Source: a virus. From it: a stretch of 38,249 nucleotides of DNA. A program made the position numbers and the translations under genes. Of the stretch, positions 6,445 through 38,249 are shown piece by piece. The notes below the pieces were generated by a model. That model was given only the letters and a program-made list of their open reading frames with translations. It did not search any database and had not been told where the DNA came from. Positions within the stretch are counted from its first letter, which is position 1. Every line of letters begins with the position of its first letter. The DNA lies in IMG/VR virus record IMGVR_UViG_3300007712_000001, positions 1 to 38,249 of that record; one strand, written 5' to 3'.

Positions 6445-7041
6445 ATGCCAAATACAGACGCACAAAATCCAAATTCTGAGGAAATCAAAAATGAGGTCAA
6501 AAGTCAAGAGCTAGAACCTGAAACAGATTTTAAAAAGCTAGAAGCTAACCAGGATGAAAAAGAGGATTTAAAAACTCAAGACAATCCTGACGCAGATGAC
6601 AATTTAGATGACGAATTAGGAGAAGCAGATGACAAAAAAAAACTTAGAAAAAGATTTAAAAAAATCTTAGATGAAAAAACTAAGAAATTTAAAGCTGAAA
6701 ATCAAAGTTTAGAAGAAAGGCTAAAAAATCTTGAATCTAAACAAGAGATTATTCAAAAACACTCAACGATCAAAGAAACGATGTTTGAAGCTGAAGTCAA
6801 TCCTAAGTATACTGATTTTATTTTTGAAAAACTTGAGAAAGCGGAAGATGTAAACGCTGAAATAGCAAAATTTAAGACGGACTTTCCTGAATTTTTTGGG
6901 AAAAAAGAGGGAAAACCAGAAAAAAAAGCGTTTTTTAAATCAACCTCTAAAACTGGAGATATTAAATCTTACAGTGAAGAGCAGATTCAAGAAATTTTAA
7001 ATTCTGGTGATCCACGCAAAATAGCAAAATTAAACTTATAA
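6445..7041 (+). CDS. capsid scaffolding protein
   Basis: A 198-residue, very acidic and lysine-rich protein between the minor head gene and the major capsid gene, the standard place of a scaffold. The first 70 residues are disordered and rich in Glu/Asp/Asn; residues about 70-110 form a probable coiled coil (KKLRKRFKKILDEKTKK); the C-terminus is basic (GKPEKKAFFKS), as expected for the capsid-binding end. Scaffolds guide prohead assembly and leave before or during packaging. Function is inferred from composition and position. Confidence 0.8.
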   Translation: MPNTDAQNPNSEEIKNEVKSQELEPETDFKKLEANQDEKEDLKTQDNPDADDNLDDELGEADDKKKLRKRFKKILDEKTKKFKAENQSLEERLKNLESKQEIIQKHSTIKETMFEAEVNPKYTDFIFEKLEKAEDVNAEIAKFKTDFPEFFGKKEGKPEKKAFFKSTSKTGDIKSYSEEQIQEILNSGDPRKIAKLNL

Positions 7042-7042
7042 T

Positions 7043-8044
7043 ATGTCAAATATTACAAACTTACCATCGACAACAGTAACTAAAATTAGGCAAGCCAAAA
7101 ACCTGGCAGAGGCTTTAGAGAGAGCTTTTTTAATTGCTCGACCACATTCATTTCTTAAAAATTCCGTTGCTAACTCCTATAAATCAGCAACGGAAGGGGC
7201 AGAAATTAAAGTAGTAGTAAATCCAAATTATTTGGAGGGAACTTCACTTACATCGTATGATACTACTGAACTAACTCAATCCGATTATGCGGAAGCCGCA
7301 TACGGTGCAATCCCTGTTAAGTTAGACTATATCGCAAATCAAAGATTTAAAATCAAAACTGCTGATTTATCTTTTACTGATCGTGATATGATCGGTGACG
7401 CTCTTAAATCTAATGTCAAACAAATTGTCAGACAAATTTTAAGAAAAATGAATGAAAGACTTAGAACTTCAGCTTTTGCGGTAAACTACGGAACATCAGG
7501 GACTGCTTTAAATGCTAAAGTATTTCAATCAATCAGAAACGCTGCAGATTTGCAGGGATATCAAGACAAAAGAATTGAAATCAGACTTTCGCCAGCTTAC
7601 TACAACGAGGCTGTAAATATCCCTGAATTTCAAAAAATTAGTGGATATGTCGGGGTATCTGGAAACAATGATGCCTCCAATACTTCAATCTCTTCAACGA
7701 TGTTTAGAGTTGAAGGTCAATATAATATTGATTTTATCAAAGATGATTTATTTGATATTCCCGTACCAGGAACTGATCCAGTTGGAGTTGCTTATACTGA
7801 TGTCTCAGCTACTCCAGCATTCAGAGGTTTAGAAGAAGGTGATGAAGCAGATGTCAAAATATTCGAGCCAACAACTGGTATCACTTTACTACTTCAACCT
7901 GATGAATTTAAAGTTGCAGCTGGAAGAGTTAAAGGCTGGTCACTCGAAGGTCTCTATGGTTTTTCTGAATTATCTGGAGATATTGATCAGGTCGGTGATG
8001 TTCAATCAGCACCAATATTTAACGTGCTAGGGGGGGAAGCATAA
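7043..8044 (+). CDS. major capsid protein
   Basis: A 333-residue protein after the scaffold; size, position and composition fit an HK97-fold coat protein. The N-terminus is helical (KNLAEALERAFLIARP), followed by strand-rich regions and a central helix (IVRQILRKMNERLR) that may be the spine helix. Its GC content is higher than that of its neighbours and its codon use looks optimised, as expected for the most abundant virion protein. The ATG follows the scaffold stop with one base between (TAA-T-ATG). A terminator hairpin overlaps its stop codon. Confidence 0.9.
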   Translation: MSNITNLPSTTVTKIRQAKNLAEALERAFLIARPHSFLKNSVANSYKSATEGAEIKVVVNPNYLEGTSLTSYDTTELTQSDYAEAAYGAIPVKLDYIANQRFKIKTADLSFTDRDMIGDALKSNVKQIVRQILRKMNERLRTSAFAVNYGTSGTALNAKVFQSIRNAADLQGYQDKRIEIRLSPAYYNEAVNIPEFQKISGYVGVSGNNDASNTSISSTMFRVEGQYNIDFIKDDLFDIPVPGTDPVGVAYTDVSATPAFRGLEEGDEADVKIFEPTTGITLLLQPDEFKVAAGRVKGWSLEGLYGFSELSGDIDQVGDVQSAPIFNVLGGEA

Positions 8045-8058: not shown

Positions 8059-8080
8059 TAAAAAATAATAATAATAATAT

Positions 8081-8389
8081 ATGAAAAACGAAGAAAAAAT
8101 CGCCTTTAAAAACTTAAAAAATGGAATTATTTTTGTAGTCCCTTTAAAAGAAGCAAAAATTTATACCCAAGGGAAGTTTGCAAAACACTACAAACAAGCT
8201 GAAGTTGAAGAAATGAAAAAATATTCAGTAGGTAAAGAATATTGGGATGAATTTTACAAAGAAAACCCTCAAGCTGTCCCAAATAAAACAGTTAATAAGG
8301 GTGCTTTTGATGATTTAATTGATGTAGAGTCAAAATCAAAAACCTTAAAAAAACAATCAAATGAGCCAAAAAAAGAAATATTTAAATAA
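8081..8389 (+). CDS. hypothetical head-region protein
   Basis: A 102-residue protein not recognised as a named family. It starts with a short beta-rich segment (KNLKNGIIFVVPLKEAKIY), has a helical middle (KQAEVEEMKKYSVGKEYWDEFY) and ends in a lysine-rich tail. It stands between the major capsid gene and the connector block, where phages place small decoration, head-maturation or fibre-anchor proteins. It is the first gene after the capsid terminator. Start chosen at the first ATG, after an A/T-rich leader. Confidence 0.7.
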   Translation: MKNEEKIAFKNLKNGIIFVVPLKEAKIYTQGKFAKHYKQAEVEEMKKYSVGKEYWDEFYKENPQAVPNKTVNKGAFDDLIDVESKSKTLKKQSNEPKKEIFK

Positions 8390-8396
8390 TTAAATT

Positions 8397-8567
8397 ATGC
8401 GAGTGTTACTGAAAAATTTGGCAGGTAAAATATTTTGGGCAGATGAAAAAGAAGTAAATTCTTATTTAAAAAAGGGATTTACTAAAGTTTCAAAACCTAA
8501 AAAAAAACAAGTCAAATCTACGACCTCAACAAAGACGGCAGATTTGACAAAAAAGACGGAAAAATAG
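8397..8567 (+). CDS. small head protein, zero-frame product
   Basis: A 56-residue product. The N-terminal 30 residues (VLLKNLAGKIFWADEKEV, then YLKKGFTKV) resemble the short domain found in small proteins beside phage capsid genes; the rest is a Lys/Thr tail. A nine-A tract lies at 8499-8507 after the CCT codon. In the -1 frame past this tract a very different, well-formed sequence follows (see 8507-8605), so the 56-residue form may be one of two products, or the result of a one-base indel. Confidence 0.65.
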   Translation: MRVLLKNLAGKIFWADEKEVNSYLKKGFTKVSKPKKKQVKSTTSTKTADLTKKTEK

Positions 8568-8605
8568 CAGGACAAGTTTTAGCAAGAATAAAATATGATT
8601 ACTAA
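8507..8605 (+). CDS. -1 frame extension with dockerin/EF-hand-like motif
   Basis: After a -1 slip on A9 (8499-8507) the small head protein continues for 32 codons in the other frame. This segment contains DLNKDGRFDKKD followed by GKIAGQVLA, the calcium-loop pattern D-x-N-x-D-G-x-x-D-x-x-D plus helix that is typical of EF-hands and of half a dockerin module. The -1 frame has a stop (8498-8500) just before the A tract, so the frame can only be entered there or later. The fused protein would have 69 residues. Its end overlaps the next gene's start (8595) by 11 bases. Either a programmed frameshift or an indel in the homopolymer; coding signal is clear, mechanism is inferred. Confidence 0.6.
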   Translation, partial: TSQIYDLNKDGRFDKKDGKIAGQVLARIKYDY

Positions 8606-9230
8606 ATCAATAACAGACCGACAATATATCTTAGCTAGTGATATTACAGACAATCCTGAAATTAGCTTGTCTATGTTCAACACTGCAGAGCGTATGATTG
8701 ACGATTTGTTACCTGAATTTAGATCATTGCATGTTTTTGCTAAATCTAATATTGAAGTGCTAACACTCAATGTTGATATTGTAAGTAATCAAATAGTTTT
8801 AGATTCTTCATATTCAAAAGAAAAAAATTATTTTGCTTTTTGTGTTGTGGAAATTTTGGAAGGAATAAATAGAGGTATTAAAATCCCTGTCGTTTCTTCC
8901 GAAAATAGTACTCTTATTCTAGGTGCAACTCTTAATGATATTTCTGATATTGATGTCAAAATATATCAATTAGGGAAAGCTCCTTTTTATTCTGATTATA
9001 AATCAGGCTATAAAACAATAAATGAGAATATTAGACAAGCGACAATTTATCAAGCTAAATATTTGACTGAAAATGAAGGTAATCTGAACGCTATTCAATT
9101 TAAATCTGAAACAGAATCTACAAGTAGTTATTCTTACACACTAGCTACTGAATCAGAATCACTAAATAATCTCTACCCATCAATTGTTAAAAAATTAATT
9201 AATTCCTTAGGATTTATTCAAGTTGTCTAA
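8595..9230 (+). CDS. head-tail connector / DNA packaging protein
   Basis: A 211-residue protein in the slot of the connector adaptor (SPP1 gp15 or HK97 gp6 type). The N-terminal 35 residues are helical (SMFNTAERMIDDLLPEF), followed by beta-rich segments and a C-terminal helical region ending NNLYPSIVKKLINSLG. Adaptors bind the portal ring from outside. Longer than the usual 100-150 residue adaptor, so an extra domain is present. Function is inferred from position. Confidence 0.55.
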   Translation: MITKSITDRQYILASDITDNPEISLSMFNTAERMIDDLLPEFRSLHVFAKSNIEVLTLNVDIVSNQIVLDSSYSKEKNYFAFCVVEILEGINRGIKIPVVSSENSTLILGATLNDISDIDVKIYQLGKAPFYSDYKSGYKTINENIRQATIYQAKYLTENEGNLNAIQFKSETESTSSYSYTLATESESLNNLYPSIVKKLINSLGFIQVV

Positions 9231-10927: not shown

Positions 10928-11542
10928 ATGAAATACGAAATATCAGAATTTAATTTAGGAGATAAAACTTTTACTTTAGAAATTGAAAATCCAAATGCTA
11001 GATTTTTTGCAGACTTTCCTGAAATGTTAAAAGGTTATGATGTAGAAAAAGTAGCAAAAGAAGTTGAAATTTTAAAAAAAGTAGCAAGAAAAATTTATCA
11101 ATGCTCAAATTTAAAAAGTGAGGGCTTTGATGATGATTTGTGTTTGCTTGAACTCCCAGAGGCTTTTATTTTCATGATTTTTTCAAAATATTTATTAGGT
11201 GAAAATCAAGAATTTGAATCAGAAAAAACAGGATTCAATTCTAAAACTCTTATATTTGAAGATTTAAAAGGAAATAAATACACTAAAGAAAAAGTTAAAT
11301 TTATTCCAGCTTTAAAAGCTATAAAATACAAAGATTTGACTTCAAAAATTAACGCAAAAAATCCAAATAAAAAAAATATTGAGTCATTTTTTGACGGAGT
11401 TTCTGCAATTCTTAAAAATGAAGTAAATTTAGACCTTCCTTTTGAAACTGGAGAAATATTAAATAATTTCTCTTTGTATACTACACTGAACTTATATAAA
11501 GCAGTTTCTAATGTAGAATATGAAGTTGAAAAAAAAATTTAG
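10928..11542 (+). CDS. tail assembly chaperone, G-type
   Basis: A 204-residue acidic, helical protein between the tube and tape measure genes. It ends in EVEKKI-stop, read through the A9 tract at 11529-11537 (GAA AAA AAA ATT TAG). In lambda-like tails the equivalent gpG coats the tape measure protein, and a few percent of ribosomes slip -1 near its end to make the longer gpGT. The same arrangement is visible here, with the continuation at 11536-11934. Confidence 0.85.
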   Translation: MKYEISEFNLGDKTFTLEIENPNARFFADFPEMLKGYDVEKVAKEVEILKKVARKIYQCSNLKSEGFDDDLCLLELPEAFIFMIFSKYLLGENQEFESEKTGFNSKTLIFEDLKGNKYTKEKVKFIPALKAIKYKDLTSKINAKNPNKKNIESFFDGVSAILKNEVNLDLPFETGEILNNFSLYTTLNLYKAVSNVEYEVEKKI

Positions 11543-11934
11543 AGGGATCTTATAACTATTTAGAAGCCCTTTTTATCTTAAAAAGCAAGGGCTGGAGCAG
11601 TGATGAGGTTAAAGAATTGAGTCGATTTGAGCTTGAAACTTTAATCAATATTTCAAATTTTCATAATTATACAAAAAAAATATTGTTATCTGAATACTCC
11701 AGCCTTGCAAATGCTGAATTTCAAGCTGAAAAAAAGCATAAAGATAAAATTACTAAAGCTAAAAATAAAATCCAAGAAAAGATTTTTAAAAATTTTTACG
11801 AATACACCAATAAATACGCAAACGCACAAGGGCTTTCAAAAACGATTGGTATGGAACTACCAAAAAATGTTAGAACTGCTAACAAAGAAGATATGCAAAG
11901 CATAATGTCACAATTTGCTAAAAAATTTAAATAA
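11536..11934 (+). CDS. tail assembly chaperone, T extension made by -1 frameshift
   Basis: After A AAA AAA (11530-11536) a one-base backward slip continues as AAT TTA GAG and stays open for 132 codons. The extension begins YNYLEALFILKSKGW and SSDEVKELSRFELE, the Leu/Gly/Trp pattern common at the start of T domains, and has a basic helical C-terminus. The fused GT protein would have 335 residues. T domains bind the tube subunits and bring them to the G-coated tape measure. No independent start with leader is present: the only early candidate is TTG 11617 inside the domain. Confidence 0.88.
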   Translation, partial: NLEGSYNYLEALFILKSKGWSSDEVKELSRFELETLINISNFHNYTKKILLSEYSSLANAEFQAEKKHKDKITKAKNKIQEKIFKNFYEYTNKYANAQGLSKTIGMELPKNVRTANKEDMQSIMSQFAKKFK

Positions 11935-37592: not shown

Positions 37593-38249
37593 ATGAGACA
37601 AATCCAAAATAAAATAATCAAAACTGAATTAGTAAATTGGCAGGAGCTAAAAGATCTGCAACCAACTAATCTTAAAAATCCTTACCATAATGAAAAGACT
37701 AAAAAAAGTTTAATTAAAAATGGTTTTAGCTTTGCTTTTTATGTTTGGCAAAGTGAAGGAGATATTTATATTTTAGATGGACATTTAAGAACTGATTTGT
37801 TAAGAGAATTAGTAAATGAGGGTTTTGATGTTCCAGAAAAACTAACCTGCACTTTTTTAGATTTAAAAAATAGAAAAGAAGCGGTTAAATATTTACTAGA
37901 GGTTTTTAATACCAAAAAAAATCCTATTGACGAAACGGCAATGATTGACTGGATTGAGATTGAGGATATTGATATTGAAGAGGTTGAGGTTGATAGTTTG
38001 GATGTGGAAGTTGTAGAGCAAGAAAATGTTGAAGAGTTAGAAGCAGAAGAGGATGATTTTGAAGTTGGAGACACAAACCAAGTTAAAACAGATATTGTTT
38101 TAGGTGATTTGTTTGAGATTGGTGAGCATCGTTTGCTTTGTGGGGATAGTACAGATTCAGACCAAGTGGCTAAGTTGATGAATGGTGAAAAGGCTGATAT
38201 GGTCTTTACAGACCCACCTTATAATATAGATTATCAAGGTGTAACAAAA
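37593..38249 (+). CDS. ParB-like domain/methyltransferase fusion, 5' part (continues at position 1)
   Basis: 219 codons, open at the window end; codon phase at 38127 equals that at base 1, so the full protein has about 401 residues. Residues about 10-110 look like a ParB/Srx N-terminal domain, with [19 protein letters not shown] and the hallmark [12 protein letters not shown] (D-G-H-x-R). An acidic linker (about 120-165, many Glu/Asp) joins it to [18 protein letters not shown] and the methyltransferase with DPPY at 207-210. ParB-methylase fusions are common in phages and integrated elements; the ParB domain may steer the enzyme or act as a CTP/DNA switch (inference). Confidence 0.88.
38127..38249. 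repeat. terminal direct repeat, right copy
   Basis: Identical to bases 1-123. Marks the closure of a circular or circularly permuted genome; see the left copy. Confidence 0.93.

Follow-up and report, generated by a model that had tools for sequence, protein, structure and literature searches.

A half-dockerin-like module on a small phage head-region protein, apparently reached by programmed -1 recoding on a conserved A9 tract

The nearest known kind to the gene described here is that of the Ig-like extensions, such as those of the phage T3 coat protein and of Lactobacillus phage A2; Ig-like domains occur on different phage proteins, where they are in frame or are reached by frameshifting (PMC5009743). 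Phage T7 gene 10A/10B makes a minor form of its head protein with a C-terminal extension by a -1 shift at a ribosomal G_GU-type site that has a distant stimulator (PMC5009743), and in the lambda G/GT pair a structural-region gene undergoes -1 recoding close to its 3' end, the extension working in tail assembly. Frames can also be shifted at the level of transcription: runs of nine A or T cause highly efficient RNA polymerase slippage in bacterial cells, Thermus dnaX undergoes programmed slippage on a nine-T homopolymer, and in Shigella spa13 the C-terminal extension of the minority product runs into the start of the following gene (PMC5009743). With the E. coli RNA polymerase, slippage is undetectable on fewer than 8 A (PMC6260861).

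The locus studied here has in common with the Ig-like kind a promiscuous C-terminal module, either in frame or frameshifted, and a putative two products per gene, but its module is a short calcium loop plus helix rather than an Ig fold, its site is a pure A9, and the protein that bears the module is a small one encoded next to the capsid gene rather than the major coat protein. It resembles T7 gene 10A/10B in the presumed minor form of a head protein extended by a -1 shift; the 10B extension, however, is not dockerin-like and its carrier is the major coat protein. The lambda G/GT pair is a different gene, and the phage analysed here has a G/GT-type chaperone of its own that shifts on A9, a site that varies in the chaperones of its relatives while the head-gene A9 is constant. 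The tract is similar to that of dnaX and the extension overlaps the next gene start as in spa13, but those two are cellular or plasmid genes.

The window, the whole stretch of DNA that was analysed, is the 38,249-base virus record IMGVR_UViG_3300007712_000001 (30% G+C). The record is probably complete, whether circular or terminally redundant, because its 123-base repeat sits in an ORF that runs across both ends. Its relevant features are as follows:

1-123 and 38127-38249: terminal direct repeat of 123 bases, inside a ParB-like/DNA methylase ORF that spans the record ends
7043-8044, plus strand: major capsid protein candidate, named by position; no family match
8081-8389, plus strand: small gene whose start aligns with the N-domain of 8397-8567; without the module
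8397-8567, plus strand: zero-frame ORF of 56 aa, consisting of the N-domain MRVLLKNLAGKIFWADEKEVNSYLKKGFTKVSKP, then KKK, then a Lys/Thr tail
8498-8500, plus strand: TAA of the -1 frame, made with the T that precedes the tract; shuts the -1 frame to upstream entry
8499-8507, plus strand: putative A9 slip tract, CCT AAA AAA AAA C; exactly nine A in 8 of 8 group contigs (below)
8501-8605 including the stop, plus strand: -1 frame extension, one dockerin-like calcium loop plus helix, GKIAGQVLARIKY
8511-8548, plus strand: 9-bp stem GTCAAATCT/AGATTTGAC, beginning 3 nt past A9; in the window only, not conserved
8522-8557, plus strand: predicted calcium loop DLNKDGRFDKKD, within the -1 frame extension
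8595-9230, plus strand: head-tail adaptor gene (PHROG match); the -1 frame, stop included, reaches 11 nt into it
10928-11934, plus strand: tail assembly chaperone pair of the G/GT type, named by position and architecture

The initial annotation had described a small head protein whose C-terminus lies in the -1 frame after the A9. Its coordinates for the ORF, the tract and the -1 frame were all exact on recheck, DLNKDGRFDKKD and GKIAGQVLA can both be read in the translation, and the TAA does confine entry to the tract or the bases downstream of it. After this TAA the -1 frame is open to the stop at 8603-8605 and reads KKTSQIYDLNKDGRFDKKDGKIAGQVLARIKYDY, so the slip-prone A9 falls in the overlap between the zero and -1 frames, and the T-A9 arrangement is identical in all relatives of the window phage. 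In the group sequences examined, the stretch from the -1 TAA to the module contains no ATG, GTG or TTG; short of a rare start codon, the module could therefore be produced only in fused form. The window has two further A9 tracts (at 6634 and 20161), and after each of these the -1 frame stops within a few codons; for this reason, and because all eight contigs of the group keep both the A9 and the module, the tract at 8499-8507 is beyond chance.

Two small genes sit between the capsid candidate and the head-tail adaptor, and the second of these is 8397-8567. The capsid candidate is 47% identical to the corresponding gene of contigs L050/L051/L052, and its position makes it probably the major capsid protein. 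From alignment, the 8081-8389 gene is possibly a paralogue of the N-domain of 8397-8567; an upstream gene that aligns with the N-domain is also found at L020 1722-1895 and L015 7145-7390 (reverse strand), and in the window, L020 and L015 the two genes may represent a tandem duplication. By its position, the 8397-8567 product would be a head or neck accessory protein. None of 38 genes of the window has an SD-like site upstream, and their leaders are A/T-rich. Missing SD sites are common in Bacteroidota, and these gene starts suggest that the host of the window phage belongs there.

A search of IMG/VR with a degenerate DNA pattern for the loop plus helix matched 21 contigs. In 4 of these 21 (L015, L017, L020 and L023) the module lies in a short frame that lacks a start codon; in each of the four, CCT or TCT precedes a tract of exactly A9, the -1 frame encodes the module, and head and tail genes relate the contig to the window phage. 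Three more contigs (L050, L051 and L052), found through alignment of the portal protein alone, a gene unrelated to the module, show the same two features, a tract of exactly A9 and a module encoded in the -1 frame. With the window these make a group of 8 contigs in six lineages, whose portal identity is 28-44% where comparable. The module is in the -1 frame via A9 in all 8 and in the zero frame in none, so that site and downstream frame have been kept together across diverged relatives. The earlier annotation had proposed looking for the extension in related phages: every member of the group has it, and the putative optional calcium-loop-like C-terminus would in each be reached only via a -1 shift on A9. 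An uninterrupted frame in relatives, which had been named as evidence against the proposal, was seen only outside the group. In the available sequence of L050, L051 and L023 this tract is the sole coding-strand A9, while both A9 tracts of L020 and two of the three in L015 are putative slip sites.

Does the -1 frame behave as coding sequence? In the core of this frame L050 and L051 differ at 7 first, 3 second and 13 third codon positions, and 16 of 22 residues are identical in the -1 frame versus 8 of 21 and 6 of 21 in the other two; by this comparison the -1 frame is evolving as protein. The spacing to the next gene was compared in the window, L023, L020 and L015, in which the start codon is confirmed (L050 and L051 were left out): the -1 frame stop lies 11 nt inside the next gene in the window, 1 nt before it in L023, 5 nt before it in L020 and 47 nt inside it in L015, and the zero-frame stop leaves 27-90 nt to the next gene in the same four lineages. 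The loop and helix residues are conserved, and the -1 frame is without stops, in all six lineages. Searches with peptide patterns for the major capsid protein, portal, TerL and fused protein found no close relatives in the viral or genome contig collections. No match to the small protein, major capsid protein, portals or tail protein was obtained by tblastn in cultured phages, where TerL gave only ~25% identity, and a portal search of four bacterial genomes, an uninformative negative, gave none.

The module itself is more widespread. In the 17 other contigs matched by the pattern, all outside the group, it forms the C-terminus of a small protein and is read in the zero frame, and the N-terminal parts of these 17 carriers mostly look unrelated to one another; this is why we regard it as a promiscuous C-terminal module. 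PHROG matches, where checked, put the in-frame carrier beside or near a major head protein in L003 and L018, and adjacent to a tail protein in L007, L014 and L016. In L007, L012, L014, L016, L019 and L038 the small protein with the module at its C-terminus is encoded immediately upstream of a tail-tube-like gene, an assignment with PHROG support in L007, L014 and L016. L005 has an A9 (8077-8085) directly before a module that is read in the zero frame; slippage there would remove the module rather than add it.

An alignment of 23 modules shows D, N, D, G, D, A and L unchanged throughout, and the loop follows D-x-N-x-D-G-x-x-[DN]-x-x-D, the D, N, D, G and last D of which are the same in all 23. 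A profile of these modules matches PDB dockerins through the calcium loop (best E 3e-8), and AlphaFold2 models the module as the loop plus one helix (mean pLDDT 88). The AlphaFold2 model of the in-frame homologue L016, made from three sequences only, has a folded N-domain, a linker and a low-confidence module. Foldseek found no match to the 34-residue module model, which is too short to be informative. A sequence query built from an idealised module gave nothing; motif matches in bacterial genomes, among the matches listed, are dockerin-like parts of longer proteins. In PHROGs and Pfam the small protein has nothing above the cut-off, the Dockerin_1 score being below that of Pfam. Dockerin type I (PF00404) has the same calcium loop, DxNxDGxxDxxD, with a helix behind it, but it has two copies of this unit in tandem where each protein here has one loop-helix; the helix here is a different one (SIAGKVLA with a basic tail), the module scores below the Pfam cut-off, and no cohesin partner is known for it, unlike for dockerin type I. 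The description "dockerin/EF-hand-like" therefore stands as to a loop plus helix and needs narrowing to a single F-hand-type loop; the predicted module is thus half a dockerin in form. We infer that it folds around calcium, the loop being recognised by sequence only.

Are the tract and the frame behind it real and in use? Homopolymers are error-prone and the module is in frame in contigs from outside the group, both of which favour a sequencing or assembly error that hides a module truly in frame; exactly nine A are present across six diverged lineages, however, and the near-identical pairs L017/L023 and L051/L052, from separate metagenomes, agree on that number. Because A9 is conserved in this way across the group we regard an assembly error as ruled out and give it practically no credence. 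Hardly more credible is a decaying gene or frozen frameshift with the -1 tail as a relic, which is countered by the loop and helix residues kept in six lineages without a stop, by the codon-position pattern of the -1 frame and by an operon spacing that suits it; conservation rules this out as well. Variation of tract length within a population, which would toggle the module at the DNA level, has a precedent in that slipped-strand mispairing can alter poly-A tracts (PMC3711429). All eight contigs read A9 and none A8 or A10, and given this conservation of exactly A9 we consider such phase variation eliminated but for a slight chance. From these comparisons the A9 and the module look like a genuine conserved expression switch and not a sequencing error, and at the sequence level the optional calcium module is a well-supported hypothesis.

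The tail assembly chaperone offers a second slip site for comparison. In the window its zero frame is 10928-11542, with an A9 at 11529-11537 and a -1 frame that runs on to 11934, which confirms in the sequence that it continues in the same direction as the head gene. In the window, L015 and L020 the chaperone A9 is equal in length to that of the head gene and differs from it in codon phase. The L050 and L051 chaperones have A AAT TTT and then a hairpin, and the L023 chaperone has G GGT TTT (sites assigned by inspection); the head gene of all three keeps A9. At L050 12954-12990 and L051 7461-7497 the A AAT TTT is followed by a spacer of ~5-6 nt and a G+C-rich hairpin of differing sequence; this looks like a canonical ribosomal frameshift site. 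A9 as a general -1 site, as first suggested, is thus borne out for both genes in three lineages (window, L015 and L020) and not for the chaperones of L050/L051 and L023; because the chaperone sites vary while the head-gene A9 stays, a group-wide A9 rule for -1 shifts is rejected.

Is it, then, the polymerase or the ribosome that would shift frame in the head gene? A_AAA_AAA is a ribosomal slip heptamer. It has the form X_XXY_YYZ, is in frame at 8501-8507 and is likewise in frame in every group member; this, the stable 9-bp stem just past the window's A9 (z -4.6) and the apparently canonical ribosomal site with hairpin in the L050/L051 chaperone all speak for programmed -1 ribosomal frameshifting on this heptamer, which would give the same product pair with no polymerase slippage. 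However, no stem is common to the group (zero consensus pairs downstream of the A9), and neither a conserved downstream stem-loop or pseudoknot nor an SD-like stimulator was found, the latter being unlikely because none of the 38 gene starts shows an SD-like site. Rfam gave weak matches only, below gathering scores. A conserved stem or SD-like stimulator is not required at every ribosomal frameshift site, so their absence makes a ribosomal shift less likely rather than excluding it outright, and we judge it unlikely overall. Programmed slippage calls for a homopolymer of at least 8-9 A or T, and exactly A9 has been kept in all members though A7 would be enough for the ribosome. This constancy is only moderate evidence, because, given KKK, Lys codon bias alone keeps AAA AAA AAA in six lineages with a probability of ~0.03. 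We favour RNA polymerase slippage, A9 being read as A10, because constant tract length goes together with the lack of a shared stimulatory structure, and because SD sites do not appear to be used and the chaperone has an A9 of the same length in another codon phase.

We therefore think it fairly probable that programmed -1 recoding at the A9 gives this gene two protein products, the shift being mainly RNA polymerase slippage. The polymerase would copy A9 as A10 in a fraction of transcripts, and both forms would be made: the 56-aa zero-frame product as the short form and, as a fraction, a 69-residue form in which KKK continues into the C-terminal dockerin-like module. The protein may be present in the virion as a minor component, close to the head or neck, a placement for which its position beside the head genes is no proof. 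The module, displayed on a subset of the copies, would then most likely act as an accessory contact or adsorption element, as has been proposed for phage Ig-like domains. A broader reading, possible but doubtful, is that an unrecognised promiscuous half-dockerin is carried, in the style of Ig-like domains, by phage head and tail accessory proteins, and that one phage group doses it on the particle through polymerase slippage on A9, a tract length also employed by the tail chaperone of some group members.

In the literature searched there was no report of programmed transcriptional slippage in a phage head-region protein and no relevant paper on dockerins with phage frameshifting or phage heads. 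That an optional module set by slippage would be new is true of the module and of the pure A9 site, and less so of the principle, since Ig-like coat extensions made by frameshifting are known (PMC5009743). As with the Ig-like domains, the module is found on different phage proteins, in 17 contigs in frame and in 8 via the -1 shift, and it appears to be a promiscuous C-terminal phage module that one phage group reaches by apparently programmed -1 recoding. The conserved recoding site is known in kind and new in its module.

If the polymerase reading is true, this would be an unusual mechanism for a phage head-region protein, and the constant A9 in an AT-rich phage without visible SD use makes the locus a natural test of polymerase versus ribosome. 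Gene callers that read uninterrupted frames alone would miss the module in every member of the group. Beside the Ig-like domains it would be a second promiscuous C-terminal module on phage structural-region proteins, in frame or recoded, in keeping with the published idea that recombination brings such modules in and frameshifting sometimes rescues them.
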